From positions 787,001-851,000 of the forward strand of contig JAPYXD010000695.1 in assembly GCA_030998225.1 (NCBI GenBank): a stretch of DNA of 64,000 nt, read 5' to 3'. The translations under genes and the position numbers were made by a program. Of this stretch, positions 1,110 to 52,113 are shown one piece after another (the first letter of the stretch is position 1; every line of letters begins with the position of its first letter). The notes beneath the pieces were generated by a model, which worked only from the letters and a program-made list of their open reading frames with translations, had not been told where the DNA came from and ran no database searches. Source of the DNA: Diplolepis rosae. Taxonomy: Eukaryota; Arthropoda; Insecta; Hymenoptera; Diplolepididae.

Positions 1110-4100
1110 GCGCTCGGTAAACTTTCGTTTCCCTCGACACGCATCTGATTTTGTAAATTATCATGTTTTTCCCTAAGCTAACTATGTATTCCTGTGCATG
1201 TGCAAATACGTGTATACAAGACAGCTTAGGGTGGGGGAACTTTCTAAGTACTCAGAATCATGATCCCTTACAGCATCATCAGGCGTACATTTAACAGGAA
1301 TATACTGCACCTCAAAAGTAAGTATTTTTAATTCTATTCAATGTAATTGAATACATTTTAAAATGTATGTAAATGTAGCAAAATCTAACAACACAAATTA
1401 GGATTCCATTAGTTTCTGTACAAGAAATCTTATCTTTTTAACAACACTGTGAACTCTGAGTCAATTTTTGTAACTATGTTCTTTACTACTCTTTTTAAAA
1501 TTCTTTTACACAAGTATGAAGTGAATAATACAAGAACAATGTGTACAAAGTGCAACGATTCGAAAAGAACATGTTTTTTCATGATAATAAAGAAGGAAAA
1601 CACGTTTCGTTGAGCCTCTTCGGAGTTTATCGCAACAAGGACTAAACCCAAAACTAAAATACCGCTCGTGGAAAAATGGTCTATTTTTCAGCGTGAGTTT
1701 CACACGCAGGGAAGTCGTATATTTTTCGCCGAAGGTTTCGGAACCACCCTGAAAAGAAGCTTAACGGTGAATTTTGCAGGGTTTACGTTCGGGCAGTGAA
1801 AACAAAAAAAGGGTCACCGTATATAGACCGTGAACGAGAGTAGTTTTCTAGATGTTCGAACACCTTTTGTAGGGATTGCAATTGCTGGCCATTGGCGTGC
1901 TCGTACAGTAGGACTGTCTGCAGCGTCGAGATAAAGTTTAAATCTATCTAATAGTCGTCGATCAGTCGCAAACTCGACCAATGGCCGATTTGAAATGGGG
2001 TAAGGTCACTGGTGGTTTTATCGTTTTGCTACGAGTAGAAGATAGAAAGGGCCGGCTGTTGGACGGCTAGTGGAAGGCTAACGACCATCGATCTTAAGCG
2101 AATAGTCCCTGCAGCTCTCTACGCCTGCCTCGACGACAAAGTAGCAAATTAAATTAAACCGGCTTACAGTGGAAAACAATCGATAGATTTTCATTTGGCA
2201 GCAGTACTCGTCGCTCCAAAGGGGTGGATTGAAAAAAAGGACAAAGAAATGTGGTAAAGTGAAAATATTGCCTCGACTCTCGCGGTCTGAGCTTTTCTCC
2301 TCTTTTTACTTTGTTTATTTTCTTTTTAATCTTTGTTTCTCTATCCGACGACAATCAGCGTAGTTTATTACCAAGGAAGCTTAATTTTTCAAAAACCTTC
2401 AAAATTTTTCAATTATCATTGTTCATTTATAGTCATAAGACTATGGTTTTCTTTTTTGAAAGTAGTACGTCAAATCTAGTTTTTTTTATACTTTTGGGAC
2501 AAAACGACTTTAAGATTTCGATTGTGAAATATTCCAAAATTACCCAGTTTTTTTAAATTAATCGAATTTTTAAAAATCCGAACCATTATGAAATCTTACC
2601 AAGTGTGTTAATATCCAACGCAGTTATGTTAAAAGTTTATCGTATCATTAATATTATTTGGATCAAGTTAATTCTTTTAAATAAGTGCCAGAAAATATTT
2701 TTAAAATTTCCAAACATTTCCATGTATCACACATAATTTCCCTTAATTTACTCAAAATTGTGTAAAATTTTTGAAGATACTTGAAAATTCTTAAGAGCCT
2801 TTAAGTATTTTTAAAATTGTTTGGAATATCTTAAAACCTCATTCTAAATATTGTTTTGTTGAAAAACTATTAATTTTTACTCTATTATTTCTCAGTTTCC
2901 TGTTTTCTTGTGGATTTTATTGTGGAATGTGCAACCCATGCAAGATCTGCAAATATCATTCTAATTTTCACGATCTATCTATATTGATTCCTCACTTAAA
3001 TTTTTTTTCAGGTGAATTGATTATTTGAAAACCCATTTGCAGCTTTATTCTGTTCACCATCCACATACTTTTCCATCTCTCATATTTTGGTAATCACAAA
3101 CTTTATACATGCGGTAAAAAGTGGCGAAAAAAAGATGAATCCAGATGATAAAAATATAGGTACATGATGGAAGTGACAAGCAAAAGCTTGCAATCGATTT
3201 GAGTTTTGCTGGTAAACGTGCTGAGACGCTTTTGTTTCTGTTTTGCTCCTTCATTTGTCGACATCAAAAAGCAATTGTGAATTTGGAACTTATTTTAAAA
3301 TTTTTGCTATTTTTTTTATATAATACGTTATAATCTATTAATATGAAGATTTTAATAAAGTAATTAAAAAAGGATCCATATCTATATATGATTATAAAGA
3401 AATCAATATTAAATGTAATTTAATACTGAAACTGAAAAGTTGACACAATCATTCTTTCCCCTCATTTAATATATTTCTTTCCTAACACAATATTATATAT
3501 TAAATAGCAAAATGGCATTTGGGATTTAATGTTGAACATCATATAAATCAAGGATTTTGCATCGGCAAATAATCTCCGCTTAACTTATTATATAATATCA
3601 TTGGTAAGTAGATTTGTAAAGTTCAGATCTTTTTTCTGCTTTGGGTGACTCAGTTTGGCCAAGTCACACGTCTGGAATCTCTAGTACGAGTTATAAAGTC
3701 AAATTGGACCTTCGTCCGACATTTGAAAAAATTTTTTGTCGTTTCGAATTCAATGGAATTCTATTTTCGAGTTTTGCATCAGTCGACAGTCGCAGGAGAG
3801 AAAATATGAAAATTTTTCATAACAAAATACCCCGGCAAGGGCATTGCAAGAACTTCTTTTGAATTCTTTACTACATTAAGTTTACAATTTTCTATTCAAT
3901 CTTTCACTCAAGAAAAAAATCTGTTGAGCAAGAGACTTGAGGTCTTTTCTAATGCTATAGAAATGAAAATCCATTTATAGATATATGTAATATTATATTT
4001 TTGAAATCCTTTGAAAATTTCAGGAAAATTTCATCACATTTTTTTATTTCCTCAATTTTTTACTATCTTTGAAATTGAGTTCATAGTTTTCGAAATTTCG

Positions 4101-17756: not shown

Positions 17757-17832
17757 GGCGTTCCAAGATTAACATAAGGAATAAATTGCTGTGGGAGAAG
17801 TTATTCGAACTGCTAAAGGCCTTCGAGTGTAG

Positions 17833-17861
17833 TATAAAAACAGATTTATAATCTGTTCAGT
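17833..17861 (+). promoter_or_regulatory. Core promoter: TATA box and TCAGT initiator
   Basis: TATAAAA at 17833-17839 is followed by TCAGT at 17857-17861, about 26 bases from the T of TATA to the initiator A. This is close to the usual insect arrangement. Transcription from 17859 would leave a 22-base 5' UTR before the ATG at 17881. Confidence 0.6.
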
Positions 17862-17880
17862 ATGTCATTTGAAAACCAAA

Positions 17881-20800
17881 ATGTTTGCTTATATGTGTCG
17901 CGTATCTACCATTTTATTAATCCTCGCTATCGTTGGAGTATTTTGTAAGTACATTAAGACATATTTCTCTAGTTTCATATGAATATGCTGCAGTCAAAAA
18001 GTATTTTTTCGGTTCAACCATACATATTGTTGCAAAAATAAGGTTTTTCTACTAGTGGGTCAAAGCTACTAGCTACTAGCTCTGAAAGCATGGAACTTAG
18101 AACTTTTTTAGCATGAAGGGGTCCCTGCCTAAAATGTATGAATTTTTCACTAGGATAGAAAGAACGAAACCTGCTACAAAAGCATGACCAGTGCTTTTGC
18201 TATTATAGTTAGCTAATTTTTTCCGTCTAGTTGCACAATATACTATTGTATATGCATCAAAATAATTAGAACTTTCCTTTTGTTGCCAAAAAGAGAAAAT
18301 ATTTGATACATCTTTATTGTTTTGTTTTATTAATTTTAAATAAACACATCTACATATGCCTTCGAATGTGATACTAAATTTGATGGGTGCTTGTAACATA
18401 TCTTTTCACTAATAAAAATCAACGTAGTCATTTCTTCCGTTAAACAATAAATCAATAATTACAGAAAAAATACAAATACCGAAAGAATGCAACATTTTGT
18501 GGTAACTTATTCTTATGAAGGGTGTCCCATCACGTGTGGAACAGCCGTTAATGATGAATATAAAACTGAAAAAGAACTTAAAAAGTCCTCTTATAAAAAT
18601 TTGTTGGAACTTATAGTTTTTGAGCTACAGAGATTCGAAGTTAGGTAGAAAGTCTTATTGCAGGAGAGAGATGTAAAACCTTGTCTCTGTCTTACACTGA
18701 AAGAAATGCTTGGGATATATCAGCCATATGAATATAGCTGATTGTTTTTAAGTAATTCAACAAAATATATTTGACAGTTAAACAAAAATATTGCTGCAAT
18801 AGTAATTCATATGTTTGGAATACTCATACAGGCTGAACTAATACAAGCAAACCTTGGTTTTCGGTAAATTTCCAATATAATATGGGTCAAGGAACCACAA
18901 TTATGTCTGTATCGTCGAATATTGTTTTTCAGTGTACAATAAGATTTTCCATTCCACTTCAAATCTTTGTAGCTTAAAGACTATACTAGACTGACGAGAT
19001 TTTTTGGTATTTAGTTTGGTAATTGGATAAAATTATTTCCAAATAAAATATAAAACGTACAGGGACAAAACCTTCAGAACGCTAACATTTTCAAAACATT
19101 CTTTTAAATTATATTTACCGTGAAATTTTAACTTATGTCACTGTATAAAGATTAATTCAAATTCAAATTAGAAGTCGGGAGAAAACAAGTTTTTTCAACA
19201 AAACCTCTAGTGCAAAAATTTCGAATTATTCATTTGAAGATATTATGAGTTTTCAATAACAATGAGACATTTTTTATTTTAATTTAAATTTTAAATAAAC
19301 TATTTTTTTGCATTATTTAACACCTTTTAGCACCATACTATATCAGTTATAAGAAATACTTCTAGCTCTACCCAGGAACAAAAAAGTGAACGTAGCAGTT
19401 GTCTGTTTTCTTTCGGGTGCTTGATTTCGGTGAGTTCCCGCGCCTCTCGCAGTCGGGGTGCTTGTTTTCAGTAAATTCTCACGTCCGTCACCATTGGGAT
19501 GCATTTTTTCATCACAAACAAGCACCCCGATGGTGCGAGGTGAGGGTCTTACCAAAAAAGCAACCCGATCATAAGAGGCGAGGAGGCTAACCAAAAACAA
19601 GCATCCCATAGGGAACAGACAACTGCTACGTCCACCTCGTTGTTCTTGGGTAAAGCTAAAAGTAGTGCTTGACATTGAATGATTACAATTGAATGGCCCT
19701 GCTGGAAACATTCAATACCCTGTTAAAATAGTAATTGGCAGTAATTTTGTCTCTCATGTCACGCAAGAAATCCATTACACGGATAGAAATTTGATAATTG
19801 AAAATACCATTTTCGACGGTAAAACAGAACCATTAGGAATTTCTGCCCGTTAGTCGAAAAAATATGCAACTTAATATAACATGTTTCGGGAAATATCACC
19901 AAGAATGATGGTAAAAACTGAAACTTCATATACCAACTTTTTTTGGACAAGATATACCTTCAAAGATGTGTATGCATATCTTTCGCGTTTAGATTATAAA
20001 AAATCCCATAGGTTGAAATAATACTTTCACGCATTTACGCAATATTATAATCGAAACGTTCGAAAAAGTTCTCATCTGAATTCAAACGTTGGAATCGTAG
20101 ATTGTACTTTTTGTCCTCCTTAAAAACGTTCTAGCAAAGCAGTCTTCTAATACAAATTCTAATCTACAAATTTTAACTGGAAGAATAATCTTAAGTCAAT
20201 TCTTCCAAAAAATATTAAGTATATAGTAAAATAAATAGTTTTATTGTTAATTTTTCAGATTTACAATGTGCCGACGCTAGCACTCCATGTGAAATTTCAT
20301 GTGCTGGTAGAAGAAAGTGCACTTTACAACAAGATTGGTGTAAAACGGTATATAATTACAGTTAGGCTGTTAATTTGAATAATCCAACAGGGAGAAAAAT
20401 AATTGAAATAATTTTACTTGACTCTGTCGGTTAAACTTGGGACATAAGGGCATTTCAACATCTTCTAAATCCTAGTCGAATTAAATGAATTTGATAAATA
20501 CTTAATTCACCCAATGTGAATGATAATGAGCGTTATATAGAAAATGATGAGGGGTTCAGAAAAACGTGGTCGAGGTAAAGGCATCACTATGCTTCAGTAA
20601 TTTAACGTGAAAATATGAGAATATTGATTAGTCATCCGATACACATATAAATAAATACCATATATACATCATATTTTGATTAATAAATATAATAACGTGG
20701 AACATCAGTATCCTGAAAATTCAACACTTTTGTGAAATTAGAAAACTTTTATGTGTGCCCAAGGCGCAGCTTACTTTCATCCGTTCCTGCGTGAACAGGT

Positions 20801-21281
20801 AGGTATTGAAACTAGTCTTGCGACACACGGGTTACTGAACTTCCAGTGAAACCTAGAGTAGAATAAACGGAAGGCTCTAGTATTTTTGAGATTGAATAAA
20901 AGATTGGTTTTTTATAATTATGCTAAGGGTAGTAATATGTACTTCATGAAATCTTCAATGCACGCTTTCATACTTTACTTTATACTTTTGAATTTAACTG
21001 GACTGTGATTCATTCTTGATCATTTGATATAGTACATTAAAAATAATTACAGTGATACTTAATAGTTTCTAGCTTCTCCATATGTCCTAACTTTGATCGA
21101 AAGTTGAGTAAAATCACTCAAATTATTTTTCTCCGTAAAGTTTTAACTGTATACTTGATGATGAAAAGTATTAAAAAGTTGACTTGAGATAAAATCTTAT
21201 TTTTACCACTTTTACTGTTTATTAAAACTAAACTGTTTACATTAATAGGTTTGCGACAAGGAATGTAACAAAGGTGATTAA
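17881..21281 (+). CDS. Secreted six-cysteine peptide precursor (three exons)
   Basis: Exons: 17881-17944, 20259-20347 and 21249-21281, ending in TAA. Splice signals are GTAAGT/TTTTTCAG (phase 1) and GTATAT/AATAG (phase 0). The joined frame is 61 codons. Exon 1 is almost entirely signal peptide: a basic start, then a hydrophobic core STILLILAIVGVF. Cleavage is likely after residue 28 (Ala at -1 and -3), giving a mature peptide of about 33 residues. Its six cysteines are at 32, 36, 42, 49, 53 and 57: C-x3-C-x5-C-x6-C-x3-C-x3-C. The even number and three CxxxC pairs suggest three disulfides and helical CxxxC geometry. It would be exported; a venom, immune or other secreted role is possible but not shown. 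Failure to splice intron 2 would give an early TAG at 20363-20365 and lose the last two cysteines. I recognise no named family. Confidence 0.7.
18695..18934. mobile_element. TA-flanked MITE in intron 1
   Basis: The ends CACTGAAAGAAATG and (complement) CACTGAAAAACAAT are flanked by TA at 18693-18694 and 18935-18936. The CACTGAAAAA terminus is shared with the MITE at 53650-53878. No coding capacity. Confidence 0.6.
19371..19650. mobile_element. Fold-back MITE in intron 1
   Basis: Long imperfect inverted arms begin CCCAGGAACAA and CCCAAGAACAA, flanked by TA at 19369-19370 and 19651-19652. Both arms contain ACGTAGCAGTTGTCTGTT, then repeated GGGTGCTTG/GGGATGC-like words. The overlapping frames at 19343-19711 (-) and 19399-19590 (+) are the arms and not genes. 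Confidence 0.75.
20388..21137. mobile_element. TIR element family A, copy 1 (inside intron 2)
   Basis: Ends read GGAGAAAAATAATTGAAATA and, on the complement, ACGGAGAAAAATAATTTGAG. Both run on into a GGTTAAACTTGGGACATA-like tract. It is internally shorter than the copy at 49538-52111: the left ~250 bp and right ~490 bp match that copy, and the middle is missing. It makes up about 750 of the 901 bases of intron 2 of the peptide gene. No transposase frame. Confidence 0.75.
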
Positions 21282-21308
21282 TCGTCCCCCATTTTTCCGC
21301 CAATTGGT

Positions 21309-21314
21309 AATAAA
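21309..21314 (+). promoter_or_regulatory. Poly(A) signal AATAAA of the peptide gene
   Basis: AATAAA starts 28 bases after the stop codon at 21281. More AATAAA words follow at about 21375-21440. Confidence 0.5.
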
Positions 21315-22248: not shown

Positions 22249-23504
22249 ATGGAATTAACTTATTTGACGGTATGTACTCGAAATACTAAAAATATAATAA
22301 TATAATAATAAAAATATTTATGCTTATATCAGGTGTATTTTTTAATATTTTCAGAAAAAAAGAAAAGTCTTGCCAATGTATACAAAAATGGAAATTTTGA
22401 CAGATTCAGAAAATGGGAAGAAAAATTGGGAAATTTGCCAGAAATACAACGTCCATAGTAATGAATATAAGAACAATAATATTACCAGAATAAATAAATA
22501 ATGATAAAGTCAAAAACAATAACGAAATCACAATGATAAAATTAAAAACAATAAATAATCAACAATAACAGAATCAAGAATTATAAATAACAATAAAATG
22601 AAAGACAATTACAAAATCTTCTTAATATTTAAAATTACATATAAACAATAAGAAATCAACGATTATTAAATTAAAAACAATAAATAAAAATTAGAATCAA
22701 AAACAACAAGAAGACAATAATCAAATCAATTAACATGAAATAATGATACGTAATATAATTTTCAGGATTCTGTTGTTACTAGATAATGCTCCAACGCATC
22801 CATCTGAGGAGGAATTGAACGAGACTGATCCGAATGGCCGAGTGATGTACCTTCCACCGAACGTCACGAGCTTGGTGCAACCGATGGACCAGGGTATCAT
22901 TTCGGCGCTAAAAGGTCGTTACAAAACGGGATTCTTGTACGAAATGCTATCTCGCAATCACAAAACAAATGCAGAATTTGTCCAATCTGTTAAAAAATGG
23001 TCGATTTTGAACTGCATGTTTGTTTTGAGGGAATCGTGGGGCGCGTTGACACAGAGCACTCTTCGCAACGCTTGGAAGAAGCTTCTACCGAACCATTTGC
23101 CCGATTCTCTTAGTAATTGTCCTTCCAACACCGAATTGACCTCCTTGCTCAATCGCGTTCCTGGCGGAGAAGTTTGTTCAGCAGCTACCGTTATCGAGTG
23201 GCTCGAAGACGAAGGCGAAAAGCCTGCTTATGAAGTCATGACTGACAATCAGCTTTTAAACACCTACGCTGGACTGGACTTGCCAATTGATGGAGATTGT
23301 CTTCAAAGTTCAAACTCCAATAACATGGAAGAAGACGAGGAAGTTGAGACAAGTCCAAATGTGAGCCGAACGAAAAAAAATATCGTGAATATGGCACAAG
23401 GTTTAGTCGATTTGACCAGGGAAATCGACCAATTCACCGATGAAGAGCGACAAGTATTTTTGAAGGCTCGAAATATTGCCCTCAATGCATTTCTTTCTCC
23501 TTAA
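22249..23504 (+). pseudogene. Tigger/Jerky-type transposase, middle part lost
   Basis: Exon 1 at 22249-22269 (7 codons) ends at GTATGT. Exon 2 begins at 22355 after TTTTCAG and reads KKRKVLPMYTKMEILTDSEN, a basic nuclear-localisation-like start followed by the CENP-B-type N-terminal helix-turn-helix. It then decays into an AAT/AAC-rich tract with stops (22500-22740). The C-terminal block is open to 23504: LLLLDNAPTHP holds the second catalytic aspartate and PPNVTSLVQPMDQG the third, 34 residues apart. It ends in an acidic tail (EEDEEVETS) and a helical end. The first aspartate and the DNA-binding CENP-B second domain are missing. DDE transposase by family; inactive as it stands. Confidence 0.85.
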
Positions 23505-24070: not shown

Positions 24071-24340
24071 TGGGTGGCGCGGCTAGTCGGTTTGCCTAGT
24101 GGGAGTGTGGCCGCGGATGTAGGTTCCGAGCGAACGGATGACGGAAGAGTCGTACGCGACTTTAATGGAACCAACCACCCGTGAAGTTTAAAGCCGAAAG
24201 GCGGTTCCGCGGGTGGTGTATTGGTTCGAGAGAGGGGGTTTTTTGGTTTTAACAGGTATGCCTAGACCCGTCCTAGGAGAGTCCTGTACAACGTCTATAA
24301 AAGATTTTGCCATTTTTCCTCCTCACCAAAAAAAAAAAAA
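24071..24340 (+). mobile_element. 5'-truncated R1-like retrotransposon 3' end with TSD
   Basis: About 270 bp almost identical to 47536-47796, the 3' UTR of the large retrotransposon, including GGTGGCGCGGCTAGTCGG and a poly(A) end. It is flanked by a perfect 14-bp target duplication ATGTAATAAACAGT at 24057-24070 and 24341-24354. This is a recent LINE-type insertion into the Tigger element. Confidence 0.9.
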
Positions 24341-36460: not shown

Positions 36461-37848
36461 TCCGCCTGGGTTGTGCCTCATCTCCAACGCTGCTGTCCTC
36501 CGGTGCTGCCGTCCTCGCATCGCTCATGTAACAGACGGGACAGGAAGCGTAAGTGCGTGCAGTGCGTGATAGTGTTTTTTGAGTGCTCTCGGGTGGCGAC
36601 GAAGTGCGGTCTCTCGTCACACGACTTTTTTCCCGGGACATAACCCCACCTGTCATACCGGCGAGTTTAACGAATTAAATTTTTTTAATGTGACGGGTAA
36701 ATTTTATCCACGTCACAGTATTCTATAATTTTTAGATAATGAGTGTGATAAATGGCACTTTGACATTTATTATATAAAATCTAAGGATGGAAAGTGAATC
36801 AGGAGACTACTTTCAATAACGATCCGCTCAAATTTCCAGCAAATAATTTTCATATACAATTGTTATCAATACTTTTTCATGTCAAATCCTAAACAAATTA
36901 TTTCATTCAATTATTATTATATTAAAATAAAAAGATTTAATTTTCAAGATGTTGTCTAAAAATGATATATATATTATTTTTTATTCGAGTAACTTTTAAG
37001 TGAAATACTTCTTTAGAAAAGGTGAATGAAAATTTGAATTCACAAAAACAACAAAAGCAACTCACCAAGCAATTTATGTCATTTCTACAAAGAAACTTAC
37101 TTTTAATGCCTTTGGATACAGGAATATTCATCTCAAAGGATTATTAGTATCCTTACTTTATTCCTAGTTTTTCTTTTTAATGAAATAATATGTCTTCAAC
37201 TTCAATTTTAAATAAAAAGATCTTTCAATGTCTTAAACAAAAATAAATTGGAGGATAAAGGAAGTCGTTCGTCAAGTACTTGAAATTATGTCTGAAATGA
37301 GTTTCGACATTTCGATTAAGGCCACTCTTATGTAGCGGATGATAGAATCTCACCAAGAAAATTATAGAGCCTGGAGAACACGACTGCGGGTGGAAACGGT
37401 TTCCACAGAAGATCGTAAATTATGTCTCGCTACGCCAATTGCAATTTTCTGCTTTCCACGTTTTTGGAAAACCCTCTGCTTCGTTCATGTGAAATGTGCT
37501 TTTTAATGCACAGCAAAGAGTAGAGTGCTGCCCAGAACTGTAAGACTACTTAGGTTTCATCAGTTATTGAAATGCAATTTAGAAGATTAAATTTATTCTT
37601 CAATATAACACAAGAGTTATCGAAATACGGCGTGTCATAAACCTGAAATGAAGTCATTTTGCGAATTTCCCAAAAAGAGTTGAGATTTTGTAGTTTATTT
37701 CTTTACGTTTCACCCTTATTTATAAAAGATATTTCATTTATTTCTAAAAACATAGGCCTGCATAGATTTTACGGCCTGAGAAAAAAGAGTGGTTCCCCGT
37801 ATTCTTTTGCACGCTGAATCCGAATCTACAAAAGAAATTTTTTTATCA
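36461..37848. other. Intergenic sequence, nothing recognised
   Basis: GC-richer to about 36660, then AT-rich. 37270-37520 is G+C-richer without coding signal. No gene supported. Confidence 0.4.
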
Positions 37849-38990
37849 CACAGAGGAAAATAGTTGGAGTAATTTAACACGACTCTGTCAGTTAAACTTG
37901 GGACATAAGGACACTTCAACATCTTTTAAATCCTACTCGAGTAAAATGAATTTGATAAAAACTTAATTCATCCAACGTGAATGACAATGACCATTACATA
38001 GGGAATAGTCAGTGGCTTAACGTGAAATGTATAAGTAAAGGGTTTCCCAATAGGGGTGATATGATTTTGAATGTCCCTATCGGGCTCATTTGAACTGAAA
38101 TTTTTGTCGTCTGCTGTCAGTTGTCATCAGTAAGGTTTGCCATTTAATCATGAGTAGTTTCACGCTTCCACAACGTTTGGAAATTGTCCAATTATTTTAT
38201 CAAAATTCGAGAAGTTTTTTCGGTGTTCAAAGAGCATATCGTGCAAAATATGGTCGTCATTCTGCTCCATCCGCGCTCTCAATTCGTCGAATAATCGATA
38301 AGTTGGAGAGTGAATTTACTCTATTGGATACTAAGCCTAAAAATCGTATGCGTACCGCACGTACTACACAGAATATAGCCGCCGTACCGTGAATTGTCCG
38401 TGCCACGCCGATCTCAGGAATTGGGCCTGTCCAGGATGACTACCTGGCGTATTTTGCGATTGGATCTTGGCCTGCATCCCTATAAGATCATTCTGGCCCA
38501 AGAACTGAAGCCTAATGACTATCGTTTGCGTCGGGAGTTCGCGGATTGGGCTCTGGAATCAATTGAAAATGATCCCAATTTTCATCAAAAAATCATCTTT
38601 TCTGATGAGGCGCATTTTTGGCTCAAGTCTCGGGGGACATTTGGCCGATATATTGTTTAAATCATAAATGGCATAGAATATCCAATATAATAAAAAAGAT
38701 TTCGATCAATTCCGAATGAATATTCAGTGTTTTTTTTCAATTTCAAAACATATCACCCTTATTGGGAAACCCTTTATATCACTAACGCTCGGAGAGCTTC
38801 AAACGATAGTTCGATAAAACGAAAATCAGGCGTATTACTTCAACCGGCAGTAATACGGCTCTCTTTGATAAAAAATAATTCTTACCTCGCGCCTGCCATT
38901 AGTCATCTGATACATACATACATAAACAGCAAACAAATTCATACACACCATTCAGTCACAGCCAATCATATTTATCATCGTTCTTCAATT
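37849..38990. mobile_element. TIR element family A, copy 2 (left half) with nested mariner derivative
   Basis: Left part matches 49538-49970 and 20388-20640: AGTTAAACTTGGGACATAAGG, then AATGAATTTGATAAAAAC. After the nested insertion at 38038-38774 the match resumes (ATCACTAACGCTCGGAGAGC) to about 38980. The right terminal half found in the other two copies is not seen after that. Confidence 0.7.
38038..38774 (+). pseudogene. Deleted mariner-like (DD41D-related) element, short copy A
   Basis: Ends AAGGGTTTCCCAATAGGGGT and (complement) AAGGGTTTCCCAATAAGGGT with TA at 38036-38037 and 38775-38776. The frame from 38150 encodes an N-terminal helix-turn-helix (MSSFTLPQRLEIVQLFYQNS), RRSQELGLSRMTTWRI and the first catalytic aspartate (IIFSDEAHFWL), then is cut by a large deletion to a short tail. 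Relative to copy B it has a 20-base deletion near 38388 that shifts the frame and 2 extra bases near 38632. No second or third aspartate remains. Confidence 0.85.
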
Positions 38991-45143: not shown

Positions 45144-47796
45144 ATAATAACCTTGAGTGACCACCGGTGCATCGAATTTACACTAGAACAACGGTGTCAG
45201 GCGGTGGATAAGGGTAGGGGCGGCGAAGGAAGGAGCCCCTCCTGGAACACGAGACGACTCAGCAGGGAAAGACTTCGCGAACACCTCGAAGAAACCAGGC
45301 TCATCGATGAGCTTGGTTGGGTCTACCCTGCTGGGTCGTTTGAAGCTGCTCTGCGCTCGGTGAGGCAGAAGGTGGTCGCGGGTTGCGACTACTCGATGCC
45401 TCGCCGTGAGTGCAGGCAAGCCAAGGATTCGATGTACTGGTGGAACGACCAGTTGGCAGCCCTACGTCGAGAATGCCTCGCAGCGCGGCGAAAATTCACC
45501 CGCTCAAAGGGGGATGCTACGCTGCACGAGGCATGGAAAGGGGCAAAAACAGCTTTGAGGCGAGGCATAAAGAAAAGCCGACTTCAATGCTGGAAAGACT
45601 TGATCGGTGAGGTCGAGAAGGACCCATGGGGTCTCGCCTTCAAAATAGTGGAAGGCTTAAGGCAAATACAGCGCCGGGTATCGACGGGGTGCCGAACGAG
45701 ATCCTCAAAGAGGTGATCGGGGCATACCCGGAGATCCTCCTAGAAGCCTTTAACTCCTGTCTTCGGGAGGGGAGGTTTTTCGCAGATTGGAAGAAGCAGA
45801 GGTTGGTCCTGCTGAGGAAGGGCAACAAACCTCTGGGGGTTGCCTCGTCCTATAGACCAATATGCTTATTGGATACGATGGGGAAGCTTCTTGAGGAGTT
45901 GATTCTACAACGGCTTCAGGCTCTCTTGGTCGGGGAGAACGGGCTCTCGGAAAACCAGTTCGGATTCAGGAAAGGCAGGTCCACTGTGGACGCCATCCAA
46001 GCTGTGGTTAACATCGCCACAAATGCAGGAAAAGGAACTGGTAAGCGTAAGGGATTCTGTGCGTTGATTAGCATTGACATACGCAATGCGTTCAATACCG
46101 CGAGATGGGACATCTGCATCGAGGCGATGATGAGGAAAAAGGTTCCAGACTACCTGTTGCGAATGATAGATGACTATCTGAGCGACAGGTGGGTGATATA
46201 CGAGGGCGACAAATGGTCTCTCAAAGAAGAGATGACATGTGGCGCTCGTCAAGGGTCGCGGGTGGGTCCACTCGTTTGGAACGTCATGTACGATGACTTT
46301 CTGCGCATGGACCTACCTGCTGGAACGAGCATCGTCGGCTTCGCGGATGACACACTTGTCGTGTGCGCCGCTGACGACGTCGGAATCCTAGAGCTGAGGA
46401 TCAATGAAAGTCTGTGGCGAGCAAAACGTTGGTTGGATGGCAGAGGTCTTAAAATGGCCCCTGAGAAAACCGAGGCTTTGCTCGTTACGCACAGGAGATC
46501 CTTCCAATATCCGAGGATCGTTCTCGGAGAGTATGAAGTCGAGTGGAAAACAAGCATTAAGTACCTGGGGGTGCAGCTGGATCGTAGGCTTAGCTTTGGC
46601 GAACACCTAAAGATCGCAGCTGCCAAAGCCATCCAATGTGGAGCGAAATTGGCCCGGCTTATGCCAAACATTGGTGGACCGAGGGAAGCGAAAAGAAGAT
46701 TGGTGGGGAGCGTGGTCCATTCGAAGCTGCTTTATGCAGCTCCGGTCTGGGCCAATGCCTTGCAAAACCATGCTATCCAGAAGAAGCTGTTCTCGGCGCA
46801 GATACTTGTCGCGCTGAGAATAGTTTCGGCATATAGAACAATCTCGACGAGCGCTGTGCTGGTCCTGGCGAGCGTCCCGCCAATAGATTTATTGGCGGAG
46901 GAAAGGCAGGAAACCTTTCAGCTTCGCAAGGAGCTTACCTGCGCCGACCTGCAGGAAATCGCTCGCGTGAAGGAGGCCATCCGCAAGGATGGAAGGCGCA
47001 GACTCGTCGAGAAATGGCAGATGAGATGGCATGGTGAGCAGACAGGGAGATGGACCTACCGCCTGACCCCAGAGCTCGCCATCTGGCTGAACAGAAAGCA
47101 CGGGGAAATCGGCTTTTACTTGGCGCAAGCGCTCTCGGGCCATGGCTGTTTTAACGCGTACCTGAGGCGCTTTAAGAAGGGAGACGAGGAGATGTGTTGC
47201 TACTGCGATTTCCCGGTGGATAACGCAGAGCACGCATTCTTCGTCTGCGCAAAATGGGGTGTGGCTAGGGAGGTCTTCGGTCAGGCGGTGGGTTCCGAAC
47301 TTACTCCTGACACGATGGTCCCTCTCATGCTCCAGTCTGAACGGTTCTGGACGCTCATCGAGTCATTCGTCACACTCGTGATGAAGAAGAGAGAACTTGA
47401 TGGGCATCGAGAGCGAAACAACGGGGAGGGCCAGTAGAAATCGCATCGGGGCCTGCACCCGCGGTCCTGCGTCTCGGGTAGACTTGACTGTCCGCGTCGT
47501 TCGGGGGAGGAATCTGTTTATTTCTCCCCTGGGTGGCGCGGCTAGTCGGTTATCCTAGTGGGCGTGTGGCCGCGGATGGAAGTTCCGAGCGAACGGATGA
47601 CGGAAGAGTCGTACGCGACTTTAATGGAACCAACCACCCGTGAAGTTTTAAGCCGAAAGGCGGTTCCGCGGGTGGTTTATTGGTTCGAGAGAGGGGGTTT
47701 TTTGGTTTTAACAGGTATGCCTAGACCCGTCCTAGGAGAGTCCTGTACAACGTCTATAAAAGATTTTGCCATTTTTCCTCCTCACCAAAAAAAAAA
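45141..47796 (+). mobile_element. R1-like non-LTR retrotransposon, 5'-truncated
   Basis: Starts inside the endonuclease domain and runs through the reverse transcriptase to a 3' UTR (47438-47787) with GGTGGCGCGGCTAGTCGG and a poly(A) tract at 47787-47796. A 270-bp 3' fragment of the same family sits at 24071. Much higher G+C than its surroundings. The + frame at 47558-47833 lies in the 3' UTR and is not a gene. A target duplication could not be resolved because the 5' side is a TA microsatellite. Confidence 0.9.
45144..47437 (+). pseudogene. Endonuclease/reverse transcriptase ORF, internal deletion
   Basis: The first piece (to about 45660) contains LSDHRCIEF, the last catalytic motif of the AP-type endonuclease, then the linker. 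The second piece (from about 45656, to the TAG at 47435-47437) is the reverse transcriptase: NTAPGIDGVPNEILK, SYRPICLLDTMGKLLE, GFRKGRSTVDAI, GARQGSRVGPL and the catalytic FADDTLVV. A thumb and a C-terminal zinc motif follow (C-x2-C-x8-H-x4-C, in MCCYCDFPVDNAEHAFFVC). The two pieces are in different frames. The junction joins VEGL directly to KANTAPG, so the usual stretch between linker and reverse transcriptase seems lost. The zinc motif and order fit the R1 clade. Frames on the opposite strand are shadows. Confidence 0.9.
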
Positions 47797-47981: not shown

Positions 47982-49537
47982 TATATAAGAAATAATGACT
48001 TGGTTATAGAAATAGAAACATGCCACTAAAAATAAAAATGACAGAATATTGAATCAAAATTGAATTAAAAATAAAATAATAGTAGAAAAATAAGATTATC
48101 TTCCAATAATCATACTATGTCTGGTCCGTACATCTTATCATTAAATGATGTTTCTATTTGATATAATGCAATATTGAATATTTCTAGAAAAATATATATG
48201 TCACTCAAAAACATATTGAAGAATCATTGAGTGTTTTTATAGAAATAAGTATAATCGAAATTACAAAAAAAATTGATTTTAATAAAATTAATTAATATTA
48301 AGACTAACTATCTTAATTTGACAGAGGCAAACATTCGTACGTTCGAAATATGAATTTTCTTTAACACAATTCGCCATTCTCAATTTTTGGAGATTTGACT
48401 GCAGCGTTGTGAATAATAACCCTAAGTAAACAATTTTAAATTTAAGGAAATCAGTCAAATTCCTGCGAATTCGATCTACCTTCTTAAACTCACTATTTTA
48501 TACTTTGAAATGTTTATCTCATATTCTAAACAAGAACCCAGAAATGTAAAACAACTAATTTTGAAGAATCGAAGTAGAAAAGTAATGTCATAGTGAGACA
48601 ACAATTTTAAGTTATCAACAATTTCGGATATTTACAAATTGAAATAAAAGAAGCTCTTCAACATCAAGAAAATTATTATCTTCAAATTCATAGTATTTTT
48701 GTTACAAACAGAAAAGCATTTTTTGGAAAACTCCTGTCATCTCAATTAGATAATTGAAAACCAAAATTTTGAATCTGAAATTTTGAATATTGAAATTATC
48801 TCAAACTATTCAAAATTGAAAAAATGGTTTAAATGATTGATTTGTATCAATTTTTTACAAATACTCAAATTTCAATAAATTACGGCTTATTTTTTCAGGA
48901 AAAAGATTCTCTACGATTTGGCTGTTTCTAATTTTGAAATTGAGTAAATGCTCTAAAAATATGGTTATTTCTTTACAAAAAATGTCTCTGTAAAATATTG
49001 CTTGAATGATTTTAGTTATTGAAAGCGGTACAAGGGGCTGAATTTCAAATCACAGAGGTTCCTTTTTGTTTCAGCTCCACTACACCCCAAACCTCGGTTC
49101 TAATTACCACTCTTGTTTTTTCTATAAAGTATGACGATAATTTTATGACATTATATCAATCTTCCATATAAAATTCGAAGAAAGCAATTATATAAACCTT
49201 TGTGAGTTTATCAGAAGAAAATTAACAATCAATTTACTAAAGTTCAACATTTTTATTCCGATGAAAAGTAATCAAATGACTCATAAATTAAATTGAAAAG
49301 ATTATTCAAATTATGCGATGACTTTTACTTTTAATAATTCAGACAAAAAAAAAGGTAAAAAATTAGGACCTCCAAAAGTGAAGGTTTTTTTTTACTATAG
49401 ACTAAATTTTTTTTTTTTTCGAGGAAAAACTCAATCAAAACTCTATAAAGGCTTAAATAATTGAAAACAATTATATAATCCCTTTCTATTTAGTTTCAAT
49501 CAATAATGTATAAAATAATTTTCAAAAAATTGTTCTA
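47982..49537. other. AT-rich intergenic sequence
   Basis: 48868-48960 contains another diverged copy of the ATTACGGCTTATTTTTTC...ATTCTCTACG tract found in the fold-backs at 4.6 and 31.5 kb. No gene. Confidence 0.45.
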
Positions 49538-49984
49538 CACGGAGAAAAATAGTTGAAGTTATTTTACTCAAGTGTGTCGATTAAACTTGGAACATAAGGA
49601 CATTTGAACATTTATTAAATTCTAGTCGGGTAAAATGAATTTGATAAAAACCTAATTCACCCAAAGTGAATAACACTAAGCGTTACACAGGAAATAGTAA
49701 GGAGTTAAGTAAAACGTTGTCGACGATAGGGCACCAACATGCGCCAGTGGGTTAACATGAAATGTTTAAGTATATCACCGACGCTTGAGGTGCTTCAAAT
49801 CGTAGTTGACTAAAATGAGCATCGAGTGTATTATTTCAACTGCCAATGGTATGGTTCTCTTGATTAAAAAAAAAATTCTTACCTCGAACCTGCCAATAGT
49901 CATCCGGTACATACATAAAGAACATACAAATACATTCGCACCATTCAGTCGTAGCCAATCACATAAATTTCATAATTTTCATAA

Positions 49985-50342
49985 TTAATTTTCATAAAAT
50001 ATTTTAAAAAATTAATATAATTAATCAATTATTATAACTATGATTATTGATATACATAATATAATTATTAAATTATATTCAGTATACATTTTTATTATAA
50101 CTACGTATGAAGTTTAATGAAACAAAATTTTCAAATGTACATTAAAAAATTGCATTAGTATAAATTATTTATAAAATATTTTAAAATATCAATATAATTG
50201 AATTATTATTATAATTATTAATATATAAAATATATTATAACATAATTATTAATTAATATTTAGTATACAATTTTATTATAACTACGTATGAAGTTTAATG
50301 AAACTAAATTTTAAAACGTACATTAAAAAATTGCATTATTAT
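49985..50342. repeat. Tandem duplication, ~178-bp unit
   Basis: Two adjacent units share ATTATAACTACGTATGAAGT, TTTAATGAAAC(A/T)AAATTTT and ACATTAAAAAATTGCATTA. The first ends near 50162. They lie in the middle of the family A copy. Confidence 0.8.
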
Positions 50343-50646
50343 CAAAAAGTATCCTGTGTAAGAATATTTAAGAGAAGGCTCTTTTATTTCCTGTGTTGTA
50401 TATTTCAAAAATATAGATTTTACAATTGCGAATACCAAATTATTATTGTGCCTAAGAAATTTATGTGAAATCTAAATCCTGTGTAGATTTTTCAAATTTT
50501 ATGTAATACACTTATCAAGACTTTTGATGTTTAAATTTTCATGAAATCAATTTAATTTAATAAACTTAAATGAAAAAGAAAAAGGTTATTATAAATGAAT
50601 TAAGAAATAATTATGTATCAAGAATTTATTAAACTTACAGAATCTA

Positions 50647-51401
50647 AAGGGTTTCCCAATAGGGGTGATATGATTCTGAATGTCCCTATCGGGCTCATTT
50701 GAACTGAAATTTTTGACGTCTGCTGTCAGTTGTCATCAGTAAGGTTTGCCATTTAATCATGAGTAGTTTCACGCTTCCACAACGTTTGGAAATTGTCCAA
50801 TTATTTTATCAAAATTCGAGAAGTTTTGTCGGTGTTGAAAGAGCATATCGTGCAAAATATGGTCGTCATTCTGCTCCATCCGCGCTCTCAATTCGTCGAA
50901 TAATCGATAAGTTGGAGAGTGAATTTACTCTATTGGATACTAAGCCTCAAAATCGTATGCGTACCGCACGTTCTACACAGAATATAGCCGCCGTACAGGC
51001 CAGTATCGAGGAAAACCGTGAATTGTCCGTGCCACGCCGATCTCAGGAATTGGGCCTGTCCAGGATGACTACCTGGCGTATTTTCCGATTGGATCTTGGC
51101 CTGCATCCCTATAAGATGATTCTGGCCCAAGAACTGAATCCTAATGACCATCGTTTGCGTCGGGAGTTCGCGGATTGGGCTCTGGAATCAATTGAAAATG
51201 ATCCCAATTTTCATCAAAAAATCATCTTTTCTGATGAGGCGCATTTTTGGCTCAACGGCTTTGACATTTGGCCGATATATTGTTTAAATCATAAATGGCA
51301 TAGAATATCCAATATAATAAAAAAGATTTCGATCAATTCCGAATGAATATTCAGTGTTTTTTTTCAATTTCAAAACGTATCACCCTTATTGGGAAACCCT
51401 T
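50647..51401 (+). pseudogene. Deleted mariner-like (DD41D-related) element, short copy B
   Basis: Ends as in copy A, TA at 50645-50646 and 51402-51403. The frame 50759-51346 (195 codons) is open: N-terminal helix-turn-helix, RRSQELGLSRMTTWRIF, IIFSDEAHFWLNG with the first aspartate, then the deletion junction and a 30-residue AT-rich tail. The second and third aspartates are absent, so an intact product could bind DNA but not catalyse. The open frame may simply be young age; a role as a competing binding protein would be speculation. Confidence 0.85.
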
Positions 51402-52113
51402 TATATAACTAGATTATGTGAAACTTTTAAATAAATTATATAAACTAGTGGATAATCATTAAAAGAAATAGTGGTCAACACTGCGGAGCATGTACGAAAG
51501 CAACCTGACGAACAAAAAAAACACGATCAAAACGACTGCAGTACGATGAATTTTTAAAATCAATTGTTTATAAGTGGAATCCACTATTTTGGATTCAGAG
51601 AGTACTAAAATAAACTGTAAGTGTATTTTGTATGTTTTCAATTGATTTTGATTATTAAATATGATAACGCGGAACATCAGTATGTTGAAAATTCAACACG
51701 TTTCTCAAATTAAAAAATTTTTATTTCTGGCCAAGGCGCAGATTACTTTCATTCGTTCTTGCGTGAATAGATATAGCTGGTGGAATAAATCTTGCGATTT
51801 ACGGTTTACTCTTCTCTCGTTTGAAGCGTAGAGTAAGTAGAATGAAGGGAAAGCTCTACTATTTTTGTGATTCAATAAAAGATTTGTTTTTTATAATTAT
51901 ACTACGAGTAATAATATATATATATTTAGAAACTGTTAATGCACGCTTTCAAACTTCACCCTACAATTCTGAATTTTACTCAACTTTCATTCATTTTTGA
52001 ACATTTAATATATCACAAATAATTACACTGATACTAAATAAGTTCTAACTTATCCTTATGTCCCAAATTCGATCGGAAGTTGAGTAAAATTACTTCAACT
52101 ATTTTTCTTCGTA

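Follow-up and report, generated by a model that had tools for sequence, protein, structure and literature searches.

Do the promoter-like, splice-like and cysteine-coding words lying between positions 17832 and 21314 of a 64,000-nucleotide stretch of Diplolepis rosae DNA (the window) make up a real gene? The question has a general side: length-based annotation misses small spliced genes for disulfide peptides, which often come without detectable homologues, and venom, immune and symbiosis peptides may therefore be under-counted. In an earlier note, this interval had been read as a small gene, complete from promoter to poly(A) signal, whose product is a secreted peptide with six cysteines. We regard a real gene at this locus as likely, and judge the full reading from the sequence, a small three-exon gene for a secreted peptide with six mature cysteines, to stand slightly better than an even chance. 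Alone, such a gene would not change a field, and secreted disulfide peptides are a common and well-known kind of gene product. If real, it would add a cysteine framework outside the six motifs tested here, possibly an animal counterpart of the six-cysteine alpha-hairpinins.

Anatomy of the candidate gene and the predicted peptide

Base-by-base checking placed the promoter words, exons, splice sites, intron phases 1 and 0, stop codon and AATAAA at the coordinates given for them in the earlier note (Table 1). Its 22-base 5' UTR, counted from the initiator A to the ATG, and its poly(A) signal shortly past the stop were likewise recovered. The distance from TATA box to initiator is 4-5 nt below the Drosophila value, the TATA box being placed at -31/-30 in the section of PMC4803293 that treats it. 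Two of the splice signals are weak, namely the intron 2 donor GTATAT and the exon 3 acceptor ACATTAATAG, which is pyrimidine-poor. The 64-kb window was searched for paralogues, and second copies of any exon were not found in it.

Table 1. Features of the candidate gene and of the elements within its introns, numbered from the first base of the window.
Feature	Position	Strand	Remarks
TATA box GTATAAAAA	17832-17840	+	Read base by base; TATA T at 17833; matches STATAWAAR (PMC4803293)
Initiator word TCAGT	17857-17861	+	A at 17859; 26 nt from TATA T
5' UTR, 22 nt	17859-17880	+	Start predicted from the initiator A
ATG, context CCAAAATG	17881	+	Read base by base
Exon 1, coding part, 64 nt	17881-17944	+	Residues 1-21 plus one base; hydrophobic core of the putative signal peptide; donor GTAAGT, phase 1
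Intron 1, phase 1	17945-20258	+	GTAAGT ... TTTTTCAG; houses the fold-back element
Fold-back element in intron 1	19351-19670		117-nt arms 19351-19467 and 19554-19670, 76% complementary
Exon 2	20259-20347	+	Acceptor TTTTTCAG, donor GTATAT, phase 0; predicted signal peptide end and mature cysteines 32, 36, 42, 49
Intron 2, phase 0, 901 nt	20348-21248	+	GTATAT ... ATTAATAG; in-frame TAG at 20363 on retention
Internally deleted transposon copy, 751 nt	20387-21137	+	Inverted termini; within intron 2
Exon 3, coding part	21249-21281	+	Acceptor ATTAATAG; VCDKECNKGD, stop TAA 21279-21281
Poly(A) signal AATAAA	21309-21314	+	Separated from the stop by 27 bases

The exons are untouched by the transposon copy in intron 2. 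Two parts of this copy match, at 78% identity, both ends of a longer element (49537-52113) that carries an ORF matching PF16087/DUF4817, and because its parts match both ends it looks like an internally deleted derivative; its target-site duplications are not clear. About 750 of the 901 nt of intron 2 belong to the element, leaving a remainder of about 150 nt, as had been proposed. Further copies of the DUF4817-type transposon occupy 37848-38784 and 49537-52113, with 38036-38784 and 50645-51411 being 95% identical. The window also has other transposon ORFs and repeated segments. A 608-codon ORF with an RVT_1 (reverse transcriptase) domain spans 45611-47437; its top-ranked relative is 65% identical over 97%, shorter relatives reach 83%, and the organism-named relatives among the best 120 of 1163 matches come from Trichogramma (3) and aphids (2), an insect context. 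At 22734-23504 lies a DDE_1 (Tigger/jerky-like) transposase fragment that is 97% identical to an ENA protein; the Tigger-like search gave 48 matches, eight of them organism-named (seven arthropod and one fish).

Joined as drawn, the exons encode a precursor of 61 residues with eight cysteines (residues 6, 25, 32, 36, 42, 49, 53 and 57). The signal peptide is likely cut after A28, between A-D-A and S, by the -3/-1 rule. Such a cut would leave residues 6 and 25 within the signal peptide and release a mature peptide of 33 residues and about 3.7 kDa, with a charge of +0.4 at pH 7 and six cysteines spaced 3-5-6-3-3 (CX3CX5CX6CX3CX3C). The description of the product as a six-cysteine peptide is therefore right for the mature form, if cut after A28, but not for the whole precursor. 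Secretion would follow from the signal-like N-terminus, and together with the even number of cysteines it suggests three disulfides.

The explanation that we prefer runs as follows. An insect gene, single-copy within the window, would be transcribed from the TATA/Inr promoter, its three exons spliced and the resulting pre-peptide cut by signal peptidase to give the near-neutral, three-disulfide product. That product would fold as an antiparallel helical hairpin, with mature C4 and C8 on helix 1 and C21, C25 and C29 on helix 2, held by a nested ladder of cystines (1-6, 2-5, 3-4). Both the pairing and the hairpin are suggested by the i, i+4, i+8 spacing of the cysteines and by the near-constant sums of paired positions (33, 33, 35); given exon 3 as drawn, we consider the hairpin an even bet. 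Outside the cell, the peptide would be active in defence or venom, where it would serve as a stable ligand or inhibitor and not as a strongly cationic membrane-lytic agent, since its near-neutral charge disfavours classic cationic lytic action. The kind of peptide and the gene plan point to such an extracellular role, although for defence or venom the chances appear evenly balanced. The earlier note had offered a venom, immune or developmental role as conjecture, and that standing is unchanged.

Rarity of the ordered parts and the possibility of chance

One challenge to a gene of any form is that splice-like, promoter-like and cysteine-coding words have come together by chance in AT-rich, transposon-rich DNA. 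Chance was modelled by dinucleotide shuffles of the window, which preserve only part of the properties of real DNA, and the thresholds of the scans were chosen after the gene model was known. A broad scan covered 2640 shuffles, one strand each. It found a signal-like first exon in 1387 of them, but in only 12 once a TATA/Inr promoter was demanded; a two-exon cysteine-rich model appeared in 164 shuffles (one with the promoter) and a three-exon model in 17 (0/2640 with the promoter). On the plus strand of the window, the same scan returned one exon 1, that of the earlier note, and it persisted at every level. On the minus strand, it returned one signal exon with a promoter and without a cysteine-rich continuation, which is attributed to a poly-T tract near 24330, where a repeated segment ends. 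The frame concerned (24389-24327, minus strand) is signal-like, ends in poly-T and has TATA/Inr words upstream; the repeat adjoining it (24071-24337) is 97% identical to 47530-47796.

A stricter scan covered 4318 shuffles, of which 143 contained a signal exon and none a signal exon with promoter. It reported the gene model only from the second Met (17892), and three alternative exon 3 starts also passed (20560, 20742 and 20816), all of them within the transposon and each yielding an odd mature cysteine count (five). The cysteine count of both scans includes C25, the strict scan having counted from residue 23. Cysteine-rich internal exons resembling exon 2 occurred in 73 of 2127 shuffles; the window holds two on its plus strand and zero on its minus strand. 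The other plus-strand case, 2896-3011, is a cysteine-rich open stretch between splice-like sites for which the scans gave no signal exon.

The homology searches can detect only close relatives, and their sensitivity is low for spliced genes that are short and evolve fast. Among protein clusters, no candidate shared three 5-residue words with the peptide. One search of solved structures gave four matches (best E 0.25, with huwentoxin-I at E 2.5) and another gave one (E 2.1), all read as chance. Pfam and NCBIfam held no family scoring above its curated cut-off (the best scores were 7.7 bits against a cut-off of 25 and 15.3 bits against one of 38). Pattern searches of two collections that say little about insects yielded 22 matches in viral contigs and 350 in prokaryote genomes, with 0 confirmed in either. 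This absence of homologues is weak evidence against a gene, and from its sequence the peptide is probably an orphan secreted disulfide peptide.

Individual parts of the model are thus not rare, as the counts for signal-like first exons and for cysteine-rich internal exons make plain; their ordered combination is. Chance assembly is further favoured by the lack of homologues in the protein, family, structure, viral and prokaryote collections, by the promoter-bearing signal exon on the minus strand, by the post hoc criteria and by the selection of the locus from the whole window in the earlier note. Against it stand the combined counts: promoter plus three exons in 0/2640 shuffles, promoter plus two exons in 1/2640, and promoter plus signal exon in 0/4318. 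The first and last of these are among the grounds on which we read the locus as a real gene, and we consider it unlikely to be no gene at all. Most of the evidential weight is carried by the promoter, exon 1 and exon 2, with exon 3 weaker. If the gene is real, it also shows that promoter-plus-exon statistics of this type can bring such a gene to notice where homology gives no lead.

Exon 3 and the end of the candidate gene

Of all parts of the model, exon 3 is the one held with least certainty, although, given a real gene, we still hold it to be fairly probable in the form drawn. When exon 3-like ends were sought loosely, they were found in 421 of 2000 shuffles and in 41 of 206 real tracts. 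A strict definition (AATAAA within 40 nt, at most 20 codons) reduced this to 70 of 2000 shuffles and two of 206 real tracts, both of which contain exon 3 itself.

These frequencies bear on a two-exon form of the gene, in which intron 2 would remain unspliced, or be spliced only sometimes, and translation would end at the TAG at 20363. The product would then have four mature cysteines (CX3CX5CX6C), and exon 3 would be a chance match. The frame is indeed open to 20363, the donor of intron 2 and the acceptor of exon 3 are both weak, and exon 3-like ends are frequent under the loose definition and present in shuffles under the strict one. Moreover, the account of ant venom genes in the relevant part of PMC10800049 includes one in which intron 2 retention alters the disulfide number, a form judged aberrant there. 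Set against this, none of the 204 real tracts without exon 3 has a strict exon 3-like end; exon 3 supplies a CX3C that keeps the helical register of exon 2, and it is followed by AATAAA; and neither AATAAA nor ATTAAA occurs in the interval from the alternative stop to the transposon. On balance, three exons are favoured over a retained intron 2, clearly if not overwhelmingly, and we find the two-exon form improbable. The earlier description of the gene as complete remains the best reading, but is less secure for its 3' end, where intron 2 retention would give the four-cysteine peptide.

A recent pseudogene or decaying copy, with working family members elsewhere in the genome, would fit the transposon insertion in intron 2 and the tandem families and pseudogenes described for ant venom peptides in that part of PMC10800049, but is very unlikely, as the reading frames, splice words, stop codon and AATAAA are all intact and no paralogue was found within the window.

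Comparison with known peptide systems

Returning to the three-exon gene, its predicted cysteine framework was compared by pattern with six published motifs (alpha-hairpinin 4C and 6C, BCR1-2-4-5, BCR3, BCR8 and insect CS-alpha-beta), none of which fits CX3CX5CX6CX3CX3C. The insect CS-alpha-beta defensins were rejected because the motif CX6-15CX3CX9-10CX4-7CXC (PMC9604261, in the entry of its Table 3) is absent, and the alpha-hairpinin 4C class (CX3CX4-20CX3C, with a cysteine-free loop) because residue 42 places a cysteine in the loop. Aphid BCR1-2-4-5 peptides, as characterised in the motif section of PMC9604261, are also orphan, secreted and six-cysteine, with the start CX3CX3-5CX4-6C; nevertheless, the peptide here lacks their C-terminal CXCX11-13C, and the BCR3 and BCR8 motifs do not fit either. 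Its spacing is also absent from the remipede peptide scaffolds as far as PMC5577568 sets them out in the portion consulted. As regards the inhibitor cystine knot, which combines knottin spacing with 1-4, 2-5, 3-6 pairing, Pfam gave no match and huwentoxin-I came up among solved structures only at the E value of 2.5 noted above.

The nearest of the six motifs is that of the six-cysteine alpha-hairpinins, a plant class defined as CX3CX3CX4-20CX3CX3C in the passage of PMC11591084 on this motif. It was rejected for its first cluster, CX3CX3C as against CX3CX5C here, a difference of two residues in one spacing. The plant peptides and the candidate are alike in being short and, as predicted here, secreted, and in having two CX3C-type clusters joined by a loop, the second cluster (CX3CX3C) being identical; they differ in that the former are a plant family, and no sequence match to them appeared among solved structures. 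Animal peptides with CS-alpha-alpha scaffolds (scorpion kappa-KTx and others), presented in the pertinent part of PMC11722136 as having 2-3 disulfides and as convergent across organisms, would share the cystine-stabilised helix-helix design, although here the fold is suggested by the spacing and the solved structures contain no sequence relative.

The gene plan has parallels within the Hymenoptera. In the Nasonia gene for nasonin-1, the signal peptide is followed by a phase-1 intron (PMC2853521, in its gene description), and this plan of a signal-peptide exon followed by a phase-1 intron recurs here, without being diagnostic alone. Defensin-1 of Camponotus floridanus, according to the gene structure reported in PMC3415428, has a first exon that measures 64 bp, and its codon 22 is split by a phase-1 intron, all as in the present candidate; it differs in having a propeptide, none being seen here. 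By comparison, the genes for disulfide-bonded A1 venom peptides of Tetramorium bicarinatum, in the portion of PMC10800049 devoted to them, have phase-2 first introns and an exon 1 that spans the prepro-sequence together with the first part of the mature peptide, an intron plan unlike that of the gene here. The statement that signal-peptide exons with phase-1 introns are common among insect secreted peptides is thus borne out by two hymenopteran genes, although the arrangement is not universal.

Taken as a whole, the predicted peptide may resemble a helical hairpin in the way it works, while by the patterns compared here it is not a member of the tested families. A bolder proposal, which we regard as rather doubtful, would make it the founder of a family confined to insects and consisting of secreted three-disulfide helical hairpins, convergent with the plant six-cysteine alpha-hairpinins and built on a hymenopteran defensin-type exon plan.
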